Shown here piece after piece: positions 11,638 to 21,027 of a DNA stretch of 64,000 nt (the stretch's first letter is position 1; every line of letters begins with the position of its first letter). The DNA comes from Cryptosporangium phraense (GTDB taxonomy: Bacteria; Actinomycetota; Actinomycetes; Mycobacteriales; Cryptosporangiaceae). The stretch is from the NCBI RefSeq assembly GCF_006912135.1, contig NZ_VIRS01000009.1, positions 186,001-250,000 on the forward strand, given 5' to 3'. Both the position numbers and the translations under genes were made by a program. Below the pieces are notes generated by a model, which saw only the letters and a program-made list of their open reading frames with translations, had not been told where the DNA came from and did no database searches.

Positions 11638-12126
11638 TCAGCGAATCGGGCGGCGCTTGAACCAGCGGCGGATGGGGGCCTTCGGCTCGCGGGCTTCCAG
11701 TTCCTCGCGGGCCAGGTCGGGGAGCTCGTTCGCGGCCCGGAGGTGGTGGGCGAAGGCCAGCCCGTCGGCGTAGGAACCGGCCGGTGGGCGGCCGGCGGCC
11801 CACTGGACGAACCGGGGCAGGTAGGCCGGGCCGAGGCTGCCCGCGAGCAGGGGCCAGGCCTTCCCCACTTCGCCGGCCCGCTTGCGCAGCAGCGCTCGCC
11901 GGGCGGCGTCCACCCGGGTCGCGTCGAAGCCCGAGGGCAACGGGCCGCCGGCCACGAGGGCCGCCACCAGAGCGGCCTGCGCCACCCCAAGGGCCGCCAC
12001 ACCACCCGCCCCTTCCTCAGCGCCCCCGCCCGCGGTGCCTCCCGCACCCACCCCAGCGTCTTCGGCCGCCGGGTGGGCCGCAGTGTCTGCATCCGTGGTG
12101 CCCCTCGGGGCGGAATCGTGGGTCAT
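11638..12126 (-). CDS. SCO6045-like partner protein of DUF692
   Basis: A 162-residue protein with an Ala/Gly/Glu-rich low-complexity N-terminus (about 1-50). The C-terminal helical region contains ATRVDAARRALLRKRAGEV, AWPLLAGSLG and a very basic end, RRWFKRRPIR. I recall this C-terminal region from small proteins encoded directly after DUF692 enzymes in actinomycetes. By position it may play the partner role that MbnC and TglI play for their DUF692 enzymes, though I see no clear homology. The ATG overlaps the DUF692 stop (ATGA). Confidence 0.7.
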   Translation of the reverse strand: MTHDSAPRGTTDADTAAHPAAEDAGVGAGGTAGGGAEEGAGGVAALGVAQAALVAALVAGGPLPSGFDATRVDAARRALLRKRAGEVGKAWPLLAGSLGPAYLPRFVQWAAGRPPAGSYADGLAFAHHLRAANELPDLAREELEAREPKAPIRRWFKRRPIR

Positions 12127-12965
12127 CGGGGGTGGGCGGCGGTGGCGCCGGCCTTCACGGCGGCGGCGATCGACGTCAGTTCGGCTCTCAGTTCCTCGGC
12201 CGGCGGGTACGCGCCGTCTCGTTCGAGCAGCCAGCCGGCTGGGGTGACCCGCTCGGACAGCGCGGTCACCAACTCCAGCACCTCCGGCGGGACGGCGTCC
12301 GTGTGGGTGTCGTGATAGAGCCCCTCGTGCTCGCGTCCGCCCGCCACGTGCACGTACGCCACCCGATCGAGCGGCAACCGGTCTAGCAGCGCCAGCGGAT
12401 CGTGGCCCCGGTTCCTCGCATTCGCGTAGACGTTCGCGATGTCCAGCAGCAGCAGTGCGCCGGTGCGGTCCAGTACCGCGGTGAGGAAGTCGGCCTCGTC
12501 GTACTCGTCGTCGGGCCAGTCGAACAGCGCGGCGATCGGCTCCAGCGCCAGCGGCACGTCGAGTTCCGCGACCGTGCGCGCGTAGTTCGCGACCAGCGCG
12601 TCCACCGCCGCGCGGGTCCGCGGCACCGGGAGCAGATGACCCGCCTCGACGTCCCCGGCGCGGACGAACGCGATGTGCTCGCTCACCAGCGGAGCGTCCA
12701 CCAGAGCGGCGCAGGCGGCCAGGTGGCGCACGCGCTCGGCCGACACCGGCTCGGCCCCGCCGAGGGAGAGCCGGACGCCGTGCGGCACGACGGTCACCCG
12801 GCGCTCGCGCAGCCCGGCCAGAGGCCCGGAGAGCGGGCCGTGTGGGTGCAGGCCCTCGGCGACGACCTCGACGAACCGCAGCCCCGGCAGGTCGGCGACG
12901 ATCCCGGCGATCTCCGGCCGCCATCCGACGCCCACCCCGAGATCAGGAAGCACGACCCACCACAC
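12123..12965 (-). CDS. DUF692 enzyme (multinuclear non-heme iron oxygenase family)
   Basis: A 280-residue TIM-barrel protein of the DUF692 family, whose studied members MbnB and TglH use iron clusters to rework Cys residues in peptides. The family start LGVGVGWRPEIA is followed by likely metal-ligand segments: VPHGVRLSLGG (about 60), LVSEHIAFV (about 93), LALEPIAALFDWPDDEYDEADFL (Glu/Asp, about 140), LDIANVYANARN (about 175), YVHVAGGREHEG (about 205) and DTHTDAVPPEV (about 222). GTG at 12965 was taken; GTG at 12953 is equally possible. The gene lies directly downstream of two Cys/Gly-tailed membrane proteins. Confidence 0.85.
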   Translation of the reverse strand: MWWVVLPDLGVGVGWRPEIAGIVADLPGLRFVEVVAEGLHPHGPLSGPLAGLRERRVTVVPHGVRLSLGGAEPVSAERVRHLAACAALVDAPLVSEHIAFVRAGDVEAGHLLPVPRTRAAVDALVANYARTVAELDVPLALEPIAALFDWPDDEYDEADFLTAVLDRTGALLLLDIANVYANARNRGHDPLALLDRLPLDRVAYVHVAGGREHEGLYHDTHTDAVPPEVLELVTALSERVTPAGWLLERDGAYPPAEELRAELTSIAAAVKAGATAAHPR

Positions 12966-13005
12966 CCTTCACCACAGCCGTACCCTCCGCCACATCCTCG
13001 ACGGA

Positions 13006-13917
13006 TCAGCCACCACATCCGCCCCCGCCCCCGCAGCTCGACCCGCCCCCGCAGCTCGATCCGCTCGAGCACGACGACCCGCTGTCGACGTACGACGACC
13101 CGCCGCTCGACGCGGCCGCTATCCGGTGCAGCTCGGCCTCGGCCGCGAACGCCGGGTCCGCGGCCATCAGCGCCGCGGTGCCCCAGAGCGCGACGCCCAT
13201 CGCGGCCCCGCCCGCGCCGTACGCGGCCCAGGACGGCGACAGCTTCGGATCCAGGTGCTCGTGCTGCCGGGTCGCCGCCCGGACGACCGACGCCCCGGCC
13301 GCGGTGCGACCCGGCGGGCGGCGCAGGACGAACCACGCCAGGACCGCCGCGGCCGCGACGAGCAGCAGGCCCAGGTAGAAGACCGGCTTGCCGCGCTCCA
13401 TCCCGATCCAGTACCGGACCAGGCCCAGCGCGAGCACCGGCAGCATGATCAGCCCGGCGGCCCGGTAGTTCGTCCGCTGGGCGTCGGACAGCACCAGGCC
13501 GGCGTCGGCCAGGGAACGGCGGGTCTTCTCCACCGCGGACCGGACGCGGGAGTCCTCGGTCAGCGGCCCGACGTGCCGCTTACCGCCACTGATCGCCCGC
13601 CGGACGGCGGCCTCCACCGGAGGCAGATCCTTGGGCGACTTCCCGACGGCCGTCACCCCGCCGCGCTTGGCCGCGCCGACGAGACGCCGGGCTCGCAGCC
13701 CGGAGACCGCGGCCTGCACCACCCGAGCCGGCCCACCGGCCAGATAGGCCAGCGCAAACGGATCGGTCACGGCCGAGCCGGCCGACGACCCACGCGCGAT
13801 ACCCCGCCGCACCGCGACGGTCAGCACGACCGCGGCCACGATCAGCACCCCGTAGCCGAGCAGGAACGTGGGCCCGGAGATGCCCCAGGTGTCACCCGGC
13901 GCCGCTAGCCCCCGCAT
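13006..13917 (-). CDS. TIGR04222-type membrane protein with Cys/Gly-rich tail (copy 2)
   Basis: A 303-residue membrane protein, tandem paralogue of the next gene upstream. The conserved start AAPGDTWGISGPTFL precedes the first transmembrane segment (about 20-38). A cytoplasmic stretch holds LAYLAGGPARVVQAAVSGLRARRLV, two hydrophobic segments lie near 150-190, and DPAFAAEAELHRI leads to a C-terminal tail of Ser, Gly and about six Cys ending GGGSSCGGGGGCGG. The ATG at 13917 lies 13 bp inside the upstream paralogue. Function unknown; the tail is a plausible substrate for the DUF692 enzyme 40 bp downstream. Confidence 0.82.
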   Translation of the reverse strand: MRGLAAPGDTWGISGPTFLLGYGVLIVAAVVLTVAVRRGIARGSSAGSAVTDPFALAYLAGGPARVVQAAVSGLRARRLVGAAKRGGVTAVGKSPKDLPPVEAAVRRAISGGKRHVGPLTEDSRVRSAVEKTRRSLADAGLVLSDAQRTNYRAAGLIMLPVLALGLVRYWIGMERGKPVFYLGLLLVAAAAVLAWFVLRRPPGRTAAGASVVRAATRQHEHLDPKLSPSWAAYGAGGAAMGVALWGTAALMAADPAFAAEAELHRIAAASSGGSSYVDSGSSCSSGSSCGGGSSCGGGGGCGG

Positions 13918-14834
13918 CCGCCACCCCCGCACCCGCCACCGCCGCAGCTCGACCCGCCCGAGCACGACGACGAACTGCTGCACGACGACCCACCACTGTC
14001 GACGTACGACCCGGACGAGTTGGCCGCGGCCGCCTGCCGGATCTGGGCCTCGGCCGCGAACGCCGGGTCGGCCGCGATCAGCGACGCGGTACCGAACAGC
14101 GCGACGCCCAGCGCGGCCCCGCCCGCGCCGTACGCGGCCCACGACGGGTTGTACGACGGCTGGAGGTGCGAGTTGCGCGACGACTCGGCGCGGATGGTCT
14201 CGCGCACCGCCCGGCCGCTCAGCGGCGCCGGTTGGCGGAGCAGGAAGAGCTGCGCCAGCCCGAGGAAGACCAGCAGGAACAGCAGGTTGCTGATCGGCTT
14301 GCCGTTGGCGGAGCCGGCGAGGGCCCGCAGGACGCCGAGCGCGATCACCGGCGCCACCAGCAGGCCGACGAGCCGGAACGTCGTGCGCTGCGAGGCCGAC
14401 AGGAACAGACCGTCGAGCTCCAGCCGGGTGCGCAGCGGCTCGATCGTGGACACCACGCCGGGGTCCTTGGCGATGGTCCAGACCCGGGTGCAACCGTTCC
14501 CGATCGCGTGGTGGACGGCGAGCTCGACCGGGTGCAGGCCGCTGGTCGACCAGCTGCGGACCGTGACGCCCCCGCCGGAGACCGCGTCGACGAGCCCACG
14601 GGCCCGCAGACCGGCGATGGCCGCCTCGACGACCCGGTTCACCCCGCCGCTGAGTAACGCGAGTGCGAACGGATCGGACACCGGCCGGGCCGCCCCGCCC
14701 GCCCGGCCTCGGCTGATTCCCCGCCGTAGCAGCAGCGTGAGCCCGATCGCCGCGACACCGAGGACCGTCAGCCCGAACAGGAACGTCGGACCGGGGATGC
14801 CCCAGGTGTCACCGGGAGCCGCGAGGGTCTTCAT
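13905..14834 (-). CDS. TIGR04222-type membrane protein with Cys/Gly-rich tail (copy 1)
   Basis: A 309-residue protein starting at ATG 14834 behind GGAGG. It shares with copy 2 the opening LAAPGDTWGI, the first transmembrane helix, FALALLSGGVNRVVEAAIAGLRARGLV, two further membrane segments (about 160-200), SWAAYGAGGAALGVALFGTA and DPAFAAEA. The tail runs through Ser/Cys clusters to GGGCGGGGCGG. The two copies clearly arose by duplication. It starts 26 bp inside the channel-like gene, so the operon is tightly coupled. Confidence 0.82.
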   Translation of the reverse strand: MKTLAAPGDTWGIPGPTFLFGLTVLGVAAIGLTLLLRRGISRGRAGGAARPVSDPFALALLSGGVNRVVEAAIAGLRARGLVDAVSGGGVTVRSWSTSGLHPVELAVHHAIGNGCTRVWTIAKDPGVVSTIEPLRTRLELDGLFLSASQRTTFRLVGLLVAPVIALGVLRALAGSANGKPISNLLFLLVFLGLAQLFLLRQPAPLSGRAVRETIRAESSRNSHLQPSYNPSWAAYGAGGAALGVALFGTASLIAADPAFAAEAQIRQAAAANSSGSYVDSGGSSCSSSSSCSGGSSCGGGGCGGGGCGG

Positions 14835-16767
14835 CGGGCGCCTCCACCGCGTCGCCGGCCCGGCGGTTGTGATCCCGGGCCTCCTGCTGCCCGAGGATCG
14901 CACGCACCACCGACAACTGGCTCCAACGTGTCGGTACGGCGACACGGTCGGACCGCCACCGACCGGCCAACCGGCCCGACCCCGGCCCGAACCGACGCCC
15001 GGCCGGCGCGCCGTTCACCCCCGGCTCCGACCGAGCCGGAGCCGGGGGCGAAGCCGGAGCCGGACCAGGAGAGGGGCCCGCTCCGGTCCGCAGCAGAACC
15101 TCGGCCAACCCCGACCGGGTAGCCACCAGCAGCACCGTGTCACCGGCCGCGAGTTCGGCGTCCGGCGACGGGCTCCAGGTCAGCACCCGGGTCCGCCCCC
15201 TGGAGCGCTCCTGCGCGAACACCCGGACCCGGCCGCTCACCTCCAAGGCCCGCAGCGGCCGGCCGTCGGCCGGCGAACCCGCGCCGACCGGCACCTCGGC
15301 CACCAGCAGCACCCGGCGTCCGTGCCCGATCGCGGCCTTCACCTCGCGTCCGAGCATCGCGGCCAGGAACACCGGTGCGGCCGCCGCCGAGACCGAGAGC
15401 GAGACCGCCTGGGGGAGTGCGCCGGTGATCCGGTCGGACAGGTCCTGGTCGAACAGCCGCAGGACGATCCGGACGTCCTGGTCGAGCGCCCAGACCGCCA
15501 GCCCCACCTCGACGTTCGCGGTGTCGTCGTCGGTGGCCGCGACGACGCTCCGGGCCCGGTGGGCCCGGGCCGCGTACAGCGTGTGCTCGTCGCTGGCGTC
15601 CCCCCGCACGATCGGGACGCCCAGCCGGCGGGCGAGCCCGGCGTCCGGCGACGTGTCGATGCCCACCACCGGGACGCCGGAAGCGCGCAGCTGCTCGACC
15701 ATCCGCACCCCGATCGTCCCCAGCCCGCACACCACGACGTGGCCGGAGATCGAGCCGACCGGCGGACCGAGCGCGCCCGACAGCCGGCTGCCGAGCAGAT
15801 CGTCGATCGCGAACGCGGTGATCAGCGCGATCAGGACGACGCCGGCCAGCATCGACCCGGCGACGAACAGCGTGACCCCGGTGCCCGACCCCTCGACGCC
15901 GTCCGGCGCCCCGGTCGTCAGCGTCGAGACCATGTTGTAGAACGCGTCCAGCCAGCTCATCCCCAGGCCGCTGCGGCGCAGCACGATCGTGCCCACCACG
16001 ACCAGCGCGCACAGCCCGGCCAGCGCCCACCGCAGCCGTCCGCTGGCCCAGCCGGTGACCGTGCCCGGCCAGTTCATCCGGAGCCGGCGCCGAGCCGGCG
16101 GCACGATCCGGAGCGCGGGGGCCCCGAGCACCAGTTCGGCGTCCGGCACGTCCCGGTCGGGGAGCAGCTCGGTGCCCTCCGGCTCCGAGCGGTCGGGCCG
16201 GGCCAGCACGACCAGAGGCGCCCCCGCGACCGTGTCCGGCGGCCCGGCGTTGAGCGTCCGGCCGCCGATCTCGATCAGCTGCTGCCCGTCGCCGAGCGCG
16301 GCGTCGACGAACGACGGCGCGGCGATCAGCGACGACGACAACACCGAGCAGTTCGGCCGGAAGAGTGCCTCGACCCGGGCGGCCAGCTTCTCGTCGTACA
16401 TCCGGATCACCAGCCGGACCGAGCCGTTGAGCTCGCGCCCGGAGAGTGCGGCGTGCAGGTTGGCGGCGTCCTCCTCGTAGAGCAGCACGAGAACGGCGGC
16501 CGCCCCGACCCCGGCCGCCTTCAGCACGGCCTTGTCGCGGCCGGATCCGACCAGGATCCGGGCCCCGGCCCGGCGCAGGTGCGCGACGAACGGACCCTCG
16601 TCGTCCTCGACGACGACGGTCACCCATCCCGGGGGTAGACCGTCACCGCGTGTAGTCCTCCCGGTCGCGATGTCCTCGAGCCGGCCCAGGTCCTCGACGA
16701 GTCGCGTGGCCAGCGCGTCGGATCCGACCAGGACGATCGGAGAGTGCGTACGTAGTAACTCCGGCAA
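14809..16767 (-). CDS. RCK/TrkA-N domain channel-like membrane protein
   Basis: A 652-residue protein: an N-terminal Rossmann/RCK-like domain (about 9-200), two hydrophobic segments around a pore-like NMVSTLTTGAPDG (about 250-320), then a second TrkA-N domain (GHVVVCGLGTIGVRMVEQL, about 345) with a TrkA-C-like region to about 570 and a Pro/Arg-rich tail. The arrangement resembles CASTOR/POLLUX-type ion channels. The selectivity filter lacks the GYG of potassium channels, so the ion is uncertain. It is first in the operon that continues into the TIGR04222 and DUF692 genes. Confidence 0.75.
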   Translation of the reverse strand: MPELLRTHSPIVLVGSDALATRLVEDLGRLEDIATGRTTRGDGLPPGWVTVVVEDDEGPFVAHLRRAGARILVGSGRDKAVLKAAGVGAAAVLVLLYEEDAANLHAALSGRELNGSVRLVIRMYDEKLAARVEALFRPNCSVLSSSLIAAPSFVDAALGDGQQLIEIGGRTLNAGPPDTVAGAPLVVLARPDRSEPEGTELLPDRDVPDAELVLGAPALRIVPPARRRLRMNWPGTVTGWASGRLRWALAGLCALVVVGTIVLRRSGLGMSWLDAFYNMVSTLTTGAPDGVEGSGTGVTLFVAGSMLAGVVLIALITAFAIDDLLGSRLSGALGPPVGSISGHVVVCGLGTIGVRMVEQLRASGVPVVGIDTSPDAGLARRLGVPIVRGDASDEHTLYAARAHRARSVVAATDDDTANVEVGLAVWALDQDVRIVLRLFDQDLSDRITGALPQAVSLSVSAAAAPVFLAAMLGREVKAAIGHGRRVLLVAEVPVGAGSPADGRPLRALEVSGRVRVFAQERSRGRTRVLTWSPSPDAELAAGDTVLLVATRSGLAEVLLRTGAGPSPGPAPASPPAPARSEPGVNGAPAGRRFGPGSGRLAGRWRSDRVAVPTRWSQLSVVRAILGQQEARDHNRRAGDAVEAPDEDPRGSR

Positions 16768-16900: not shown

Positions 16901-17018
16901 TCGTCGGAACGCCCGTCGAAACGTCGTCCCAGCACGCTTGCCCCGACGCAGACACGAGGGTCACCGGCCCTCCACCCACTGCGGTGACCCCCACATCAGT
17001 TCCTTCGGAAGGAGGGGC

Positions 17019-18383
17019 ATGGAAGAGCTCCAGAAGGCGGTCGAAGCTGCTGCCGCCAGCGCAAACGCTGCGTGGCTACTCGCAGCCAGCGCACTCGTGC
17101 TGTTCATGACGCCCGGCCTCGCGTTCTTCTACGGCGGCATGACCCGTGCCAAGTCCGTGCTCAACATGATCATGATGAGCTTCGGCTCGATCGCCGTGGT
17201 CTCGATCCTCTGGGTCATCTACGGCTACTCCCTCGCCTTCGACGACGACGCGTTCGGCGGCCTCGTCGGTGGCCTGGGCAAGATCGGCCTGAAGGGCGTC
17301 ATCACCGACGTCCCCGGTGCCCTTCCCGAAACGATCTTCTCCGCGTTCCAGCTGATGTTCGCGATCATCACGGTCGCGCTGATCTCCGGTGCGATCGCCG
17401 ACCGGGCCAAGTTCGGCGCGTGGATGGTCTTCGCCGGTGTCTGGGCGACGATCGTCTACTTCCCGGTCGCGCACTGGGTGTTCGCGTTCGACAGCGACAC
17501 CGCCAAGGGTGGCTGGATCGCCAACCAGCTCGGCGCGCTCGACTTCGCCGGTGGAACAGCGGTCCATATCAACGCGGGTTCCGCCGGTCTGGCGCTGGCG
17601 TTGGTGCTCGGCAAGCGTAAGGGCTGGCCGAAGGAGTCGTTCAAGCCGCACAACCTGCCGCTGGTGCTGCTGGGCGCGGGCATCCTGTGGTTCGGCTGGT
17701 TCGGCTTCAACGCCGGTTCGGCCGTGGCCGCGAACAACCTCGCCGGCGTCGCGTTCATCAACACCCAGGTCGCGACCGCTTCCGCGCTCGCCGGCTGGCT
17801 GATCGTCGAGAAGATCCGCGACAAGCACGCGACGACGCTGGGCGCGGCGTCCGGTGCGGTCGCCGGTCTGGTCGCGATCACCCCGGCCTGTGGCTCGGTC
17901 AACCCGGTCGGTGCGGTCATCCTCGGTGTCCTCGCCGGTGCGATCTGCGCCCTGGCCGTGGGCCTGAAGTACCGCTTCGGCTTCGACGACTCGCTCGACG
18001 TCGTCGGCGTCCACCTGGTCGGCGGTCTGTTCGGGTCGCTGATCATCGGTCTGCTGGCCACCGAGACCGTCACCGGCGGCGCCAACGGCCTGTTCTACGG
18101 CGGCGGCTTCTCCCAGCTGGGCAAGCAGGCCATCGCGGCCTTCGCGGTCCTCGCCTACTCGTTCGTGCTCACGTACATCATCGGCTTCATCATCGACAAG
18201 ACGATGGGCTTCCGGGTGGACGAGGAGACCGAGATCGAGGGCATCGACACCGGAGTTCACGCCGAGTCCGCGTACGACTTCGTGTCGGGCAGCAGCACGC
18301 GCTCGACGATCATCGGTGGTGCCGCTCCGGCTGGTATCAACGACCAGAGCGTCCGCGAAGCGGCGCCGGCCGGTAAGGAGTAG
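17019..18383 (+). CDS. amtB: Ammonium transporter
   Basis: A 454-residue Amt/MEP channel for ammonium uptake. It is hydrophobic throughout (about 11 membrane helices), with FMTPGLAFFYGGMTRAKSVLN (first helices), DFAGGTAVHINAGSAGLA (the twin-His pore region), LGAGILWFGWFGFNAGSA and VHLVGGLFGSL (second pore His). The ATG at 17019 follows GGAGGGGC. GlnK, its usual gate, starts 6 bp after the stop, and the GlnR boxes upstream indicate nitrogen control. Confidence 0.96.
   Translation: MEELQKAVEAAAASANAAWLLAASALVLFMTPGLAFFYGGMTRAKSVLNMIMMSFGSIAVVSILWVIYGYSLAFDDDAFGGLVGGLGKIGLKGVITDVPGALPETIFSAFQLMFAIITVALISGAIADRAKFGAWMVFAGVWATIVYFPVAHWVFAFDSDTAKGGWIANQLGALDFAGGTAVHINAGSAGLALALVLGKRKGWPKESFKPHNLPLVLLGAGILWFGWFGFNAGSAVAANNLAGVAFINTQVATASALAGWLIVEKIRDKHATTLGAASGAVAGLVAITPACGSVNPVGAVILGVLAGAICALAVGLKYRFGFDDSLDVVGVHLVGGLFGSLIIGLLATETVTGGANGLFYGGGFSQLGKQAIAAFAVLAYSFVLTYIIGFIIDKTMGFRVDEETEIEGIDTGVHAESAYDFVSGSSTRSTIIGGAAPAGINDQSVREAAPAGKE

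Positions 18384-21027
<2,644 letters not shown>

Follow-up and report, generated by a model that had tools for sequence, protein, structure and literature searches.

We analysed a stretch of 64,000 nucleotides from Cryptosporangium phraense (assembly GCF_006912135.1, contig NZ_VIRS01000009.1, positions 186,001–250,000; hereafter the window), in which an MNIO enzyme (DUF692) is encoded beside two TIGR04222 membrane proteins with Cys/Gly-rich C-terminal tails. MNIO enzymes are familiar from natural products that are small peptides. The minus strand carries, in this order, a TrkA-like gene, the genes for TIGR04222 proteins 1 and 2, the MNIO gene and the gene for a small partner protein (Table 1). 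The TrkA-like gene overlaps that of protein 1 by 26 nucleotides, the genes of proteins 1 and 2 overlap by 13 nucleotides, a gap of 40 bp separates protein 2 from the MNIO, and the MNIO and partner genes share the four nucleotides ATGA. These minus-strand genes, with their TIGR04222 and PF05114 matches, confirm the initial annotation, which had described a DUF692 enzyme and a small partner following two Cys/Gly-tailed membrane proteins at overlaps or distances of no more than 40 bp.

Both membrane proteins score above the NCBIfam domain cut-off for TIGR04222 (43 bits), and their tails end in SSCSSSSSCSGGSSCGGGGCGGGGCGG (protein 1) and SSCSSGSSCGGGSSCGGGGGCGG (protein 2). The AlphaFold2 model of protein 2 has a predicted local distance difference test score (pLDDT) of 85 and a disordered tail, with pLDDT below 50 at residues 273–296 and 300–303. 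The C. phraense genome encodes a single MNIO and three TIGR04222 proteins, the third of which, on another contig, is without a Cys tail and has no MNIO nearby.

Table 1. Genes and tail segments described in the text, by position in the window
Feature	Position	Strand	Evidence
TIGR04222 membrane protein 1 (P0001), 309 aa, Cys/Gly-tailed putative substrate	13905..14834	-	TIGR04222, 119.3 bits
Cys/Gly/Ser tail of protein 1, GGSSCSSSSSCSGGSSCGGGGCGGGGCGG, 5 Cys	13908..13994	-	Translation and tail census
TIGR04222 membrane protein 2 (P0002), 303 aa, Cys/Gly-tailed putative substrate	13006..13917	-	TIGR04222, 160.3 bits; AlphaFold2 model
Cys/Gly/Ser tail of protein 2, SGSSCSSGSSCGGGSSCGGGGGCGG, 4 Cys	13009..13083	-	Translation and low pLDDT
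MNIO enzyme (DUF692, MbnB/TglH/ChrH family)	12123..12965	-	PF05114, 256.4 bits
MNIO partner (P0004), 162 aa, PME-type-2-like; helical DUF2063/MbnC-like part without a full RRE (recognition element of ribosomally synthesized and post-translationally modified peptides, RiPPs)	11638..12126	-	TglI/MbnC-like model; family beside or fused to MNIO
TrkA_N/TrkA_C K-channel-like protein, outside the conserved cassette	14809..16767	-	PF02254, PF02080

The PF05114 match of the MNIO (cut-off 25 bits) covers positions 1–261 of 263. Residues H62, H97, E142, D175, N178, H206, D219, H221 and E248 do not vary among 17 relatives and, in the aligned parts, are mostly common to 3bww and 8hci; we take these His, Glu, Asp and Asn residues to be iron ligands. 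The closest NCBIfam models are BufB and HvfB, and the enzyme falls below every equivalog cut-off compared: BufB (174.9 bits against 310), HvfB (151.5 against 360), ApyH (98.8 against 400), ChrH (54.3 against 600) and MbnB (20.4 against 325).

The partner matches nothing in Pfam or NCBIfam. Its predicted structure is helical (pLDDT 83.5) and, when compared with PDB chains, gave as its top three TglI (8hi7_A, Z 5.5 over 112 residues; 8hci_A, Z 5.2) and MbnC (7dz9, Z 4.7), with unrelated chains at Z 3.7 or less; taken by themselves, the Foldseek E-values were not significant (3.9 to 9.9). Assignment to PME-type 1, the DUF2063-RRE partners, finds no backing in the Pfam DUF2063 model, which does not match the partner and matches only 2 of 35 relatives, weakly (best E 0.018). 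A position directly after the MNIO, the lack of a DUF2063 signature and the TglI-like fold of the model place it in PME-type 2, although the other reference fold of that type, NGO1945 (3dee), is not among the structural matches listed.

Tail cysteines and the enzyme across genomes

Cys tails of TIGR04222 proteins have been proposed as MNIO substrates in Actinomycetota, without chemical proof, in a study that found the association loose, 490 of 1372 TIGR04222 genomes being without an MNIO (Antoine et al., 2025; PMC12452194). We searched 395 genomes of the same class as C. phraense with TIGR04222, PF05114 and the partner family, and read the surrounding DNA. A second sample, picked by enzyme similarity alone, comprised the 80 MNIOs nearest to that of the window among GTDB representatives, and came from Micromonospora, Actinoplanes, Actinomadura and other actinomycetes. 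Tails were called with simple thresholds, and contig ends cut some frames.

Among 150 TIGR04222 matches listed, 80 have an MNIO at a distance of no more than 10 kb, in every case on the same strand. A Cys/Gly tail is present in 55 of these 80 proteins, as compared with 5 of the 70 that are not adjacent (Fisher p 1e-15). The coupling is tighter still among Gly/Ser-rich tails, where three or more Cys are present in all 58 that neighbour an MNIO, in 7 of 16 whose genome has its MNIO elsewhere, and in 2 of 18 from MNIO-less genomes. Both of the latter are explained: one Cys tail was rejected as a wrong-frame artefact, and the other is followed by only 140 bases of contig, with an open reading frame (ORF) matching MNIO at that edge. 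Gly-rich tails as such also occur without the enzyme, and Cys in such tails almost always accompanies an MNIO. The initial annotation had named tails that regularly occur without DUF692 as the finding that would speak against it, and co-occurrence across genomes came out in its favour (58 of 58 against 2 of 18).

At six class-sample loci a Cys-tailed TIGR04222 protein lies away from any MNIO in a genome that has one elsewhere, which suggests that a single MNIO may serve several loci.

The sample chosen by enzyme similarity gave a TIGR04222 gene at 72 of the 72 loci with upstream DNA, about 70 of them Cys-tailed; in the eight loci without one, a contig end lies about 60 bases or less from the start of the MNIO match. 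As a control, the opposite strand was searched for ORFs with Cys/Gly tails, which turned up at none of 80 loci and at one of 90. On the strand of the MNIO, no companions other than TIGR04222 and the partner recur prominently across lineages. Cys residues with Gly-Gly directly after them form the majority in 129 tails (455 Cys), and the modal spacing is six.

These comparative data refute the notion of an incidental grouping, in which a GC-rich tail of low complexity stands among unrelated neighbours, and we give it next to no weight. The tails are Gly/Ser- and GC-rich, and similar ones are found on many TIGR04222/DUF2207 proteins without an MNIO; nevertheless, strand and adjacency are kept across many genera, Cys is nearly absent from the Gly-rich tails of MNIO-less genomes, the opposite-strand control yields none or one, and the MNIO and partner genes undergo fusion.

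The partner is as regular a companion as the tail. Of the 95 genomes with an MNIO, 88 contain a member of its family; the remaining genomes of the 395 gave a single marginal match. It was present at all 70 assessable TIGR04222–MNIO loci, fused to the MNIO at 38, separate at 31 and as a weak match at one; a further locus was cut by a contig end and could not be assessed. MNIO and partner share one open frame at 44 of 90 loci of the class sample as compared with 0 of 80 nearest relatives, where the partner is nevertheless present at 79 of 80 loci. With HHpred, Antoine et al. (2025) identified a PME-type 2 partner in no fewer than 10% of these TIGR04222–MNIO clusters, many others appearing to have no partner (PMC12452194). 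Because the partner is near-universal here and often fused, our data suggest that most of these clusters do have one, overlooked as divergent or fused.

Carriers of the tail and its side of the membrane

At some MNIO loci, all of one family (f21), the same tail is borne by proteins without a TIGR04222 match. Seven are of 83–119 aa with one N-terminal transmembrane (TM) helix, and in the examples checked their gene lies between those of the MNIO and the partner; two are of ~440 aa, have no TM segment, and are encoded directly upstream in the MNIO operon. Their tails are rich in Cys and Gly, in some cases also His, and those scanned against Pfam gave no match. On the MNIO tree the combination of TIGR04222 with a Cys tail is widespread, the other carriers arise in two separate places with the tail kept, and one Streptomyces clade has lost the Cys tail. 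It is the tail that tracks the enzyme, not the carrier domain. The class of substrate named in the initial annotation does not coincide strictly with TIGR04222 tails: other carriers bear the tail at some loci, and in some Streptomyces the TIGR04222 protein beside the enzyme and partner is without a Cys tail.

In the published account the tail is periplasmic (Antoine et al., 2025; PMC12452194). Our analysis favours the cytoplasmic side, that of the enzyme, as the probable location, because of a relationship to DUF2207_C, the charge bias and the existence of single-helix and soluble carriers. The DUF2207_C domain of Pfam is weakly matched by 22 of 38 aligned TIGR04222 proteins, and hhalign relates the two families with a probability of 92 (E 5.5e-7); in DUF2207 proteins a signal peptide, then an exported domain and then a TM helix precede this domain. 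Basic residues in the aligned TIGR04222 proteins number 0.5 before the first helix, 3.4 after the first and 5.3 after the third, and single-TM carriers have 0–1 K/R before their helix and 4–8 after it.

An exported tail, modified before translocation and then either chelating metal outside the membrane like an anchored bufferin or released as a RiPP, is unlikely by comparison. Besides the published prediction of periplasmic tails (PMC12452194), it draws on a fourth hydrophobic stretch at residues 231–253, uncharged and weakly hydrophobic in Micromonospora-like members, and on a signal-peptidase-like AFAAEA seen by eye after this segment in both window proteins. The stretch is weak, however: in the model it is interrupted by short broken helices, and 27 of 59 Cys-tailed homologues have K or R inside it. 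A fourth TM helix before the tail is thus unsupported as a general feature, and AFAAEA was rejected as a signal-peptidase site, the segment being part of a soluble domain in homologues. The charge distribution of the single-TM carriers, and homology to a domain preceded in DUF2207 proteins by a TM helix and, before that, an exported N-terminal domain, likewise argue against export.

The model of protein 2 (residues 46–272) also resembles the GPP34/Vps74-like (GOLPH3) fold, with Z 5.3–6.6 and one weak Pfam hit. This is a lead only, because helical bundles reach such Z by chance, and the DUF2207_C relationship is the better supported of the two; Foldseek with the TIGR04222 model gave no significant match.

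A proposed modification cassette

We propose, with a probability of about 0.65, that carriers, MNIO and partner constitute a three-part modification cassette. The carriers would be the two TIGR04222 proteins, anchored by one helix and a helix hairpin, with the soluble domain and disordered tail in the cytoplasm; the MNIO and its helical, TglI/MbnC-like partner would act together as a complex whose substrate is the tail. That the Cys/Gly tail is the MNIO substrate is, from the genomic coupling, very probable. Its Cys would be oxidised in succession, most likely within Cys-Gly units, giving thiooxazole-type groups as in bufferin- and captophorin-type MNIOs, an analogy that makes this a candidate chemistry at roughly even odds. 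BufB/HvfB-type enzymes form thiooxazoles on repeated Cys of copper-binding peptides, including EGKCG repeats (PMC13097082, PMC12452194), and an absorbance near 305 nm has been reported for bufferins (PMC12452194). The modified tail might hold a soft metal, for example copper, at the inner membrane; we rate this putative metal-binding function slightly lower than the chemistry. Among mechanisms, repeated Cys modification that yields a metal-binding tail tethered to the membrane is the likeliest, with both the chemistry and the metal conjectural. More tentative than the substrate assignment, too, is a general reading in which the tail is a portable, cytosol-facing modification tag on resident cell proteins, be they TIGR04222 proteins, single-helix anchors or soluble, which would make these tethered metallophores and not a secreted peptide product.

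The initial annotation had proposed full-size membrane proteins as a new class of substrate whose tails the enzyme modifies. Such putative modification is well supported by genomics, but the class had already been proposed (Antoine et al., 2025; PMC12452194).

Several considerations weigh against the cassette as we propose it. Modification of any TIGR04222 protein is putative. Phylogenetically independent contrasts go in the right direction (2.2 against 0.2) and are too few for significance, because tail and enzyme are inherited together. No metal gene occurs among the most recurrent neighbours of the cassette, and residues 231–253, with mean hydropathy up to 1.47, would be compatible with a periplasmic placing. 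Finally, the Streptomyces clade (17 rows of the survey) has the MNIO, the partner and mostly a TIGR04222 protein, with no Cys-tailed ORF nearby; at loci such as L087, L115, L204 and their relatives the MNIO–partner fusion mostly stands beside TIGR04222 without a Cys tail. Because this clade keeps the enzyme without the tail, the MNIO may have another role there. A CxxxC pair (AC-[TA]-RLC type) is shared by the first helices of the TIGR04222 proteins examined from this clade and may be an alternative target.

Extended to the whole family, these Streptomyces loci and their shared CxxxC pair would favour an MNIO with some other substrate, the unmodified tail binding metal or serving for docking, for instance in iron supply or in holding the enzyme at the membrane. 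We consider this distinctly improbable, though less so than an incidental grouping. No other conserved Cys-containing gene was seen in the cassette, where TIGR04222 and the partner alone recur prominently on the same strand; tail Cys tracks the MNIO; and the substrates of characterised MNIOs are mostly Cys peptides from adjacent genes (PMC12452194, PMC13097082).

The TrkA-like gene was rejected as part of the system and lies outside the conserved cassette, because none of the other loci examined yielded a relative of it; its translational coupling to protein 1 may be species-specific. On the plus strand, positions 16938–21027 contain ordinary downstream genes for an ammonium transporter, PII and a GlnD-like protein (ORFs judged by eye). 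A scan for promoters and terminators found nothing.

If MNIOs modify the tails of full-size proteins retained in the cell, they are RiPP enzymes with a general protein-modifying role; and if the tail is a portable tag, a RiPP enzyme would form the basis of a protein-modification system, in which export before modification would no longer be a problem. The survey addresses the open points of the 2025 landscape paper, namely the partners, the reality of the MNIO link and the location of the tail, and is enough to choose test proteins. Particularly suitable are the carriers of 83–119 residues with one TM helix and the tail, as putative natural minimal substrates, and the soluble carriers, with which membrane-protein biochemistry can be avoided.

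Relation to known systems

The window locus is a member of the TIGR04222–MNIO clusters described previously (PMC12452194), having the same proteins in the same order, a Ser/Gly/Cys C-terminus and a PME-type 2 partner. Unlike that account, ours finds a near-strict association when Cys-bearing Gly-rich tails are considered, and near-universal, often fused partners. What is new here is the almost strict link of tail Cys to the enzyme, the occurrence of the tail on unrelated carriers and its probable cytosolic location.

With bufferins and captophorins/oxazolins (BufB/HvfB/FonB-type) the system shares an MNIO and partner acting, as we propose, on repeated Cys, many of them before Gly (EGKCG). Nevertheless, the MNIO scores far under the BufB and HvfB equivalog cut-offs, and the bufferin and captophorin precursors are Sec-exported peptides with DUF2063-RRE partners, whereas the present carriers are full-size membrane proteins with a short partner. 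Neither TIGR04222 protein of the window has a Pfam or NCBIfam match to bufferin precursors (DUF2282 or the Buf2 Cys pattern), and their first helix (residues 19–33) is without a basic N-terminus. Methanobactin (MbnABC) and pearlin (TglAHI) likewise depend on a heterodimeric MNIO and partner, and it is TglI and MbnC that the partner model most resembles; these systems differ in their short soluble precursor peptides and in their chemistry, and the MbnB model gives the window MNIO a low score. DUF2207 membrane proteins, finally, have the homologous C-terminal domain, the TM hairpin and a Gly-rich tail in common with the TIGR04222 proteins, but carry an exported N-terminal domain behind a signal peptide, and those of their Gly-rich tails seen here are without Cys.

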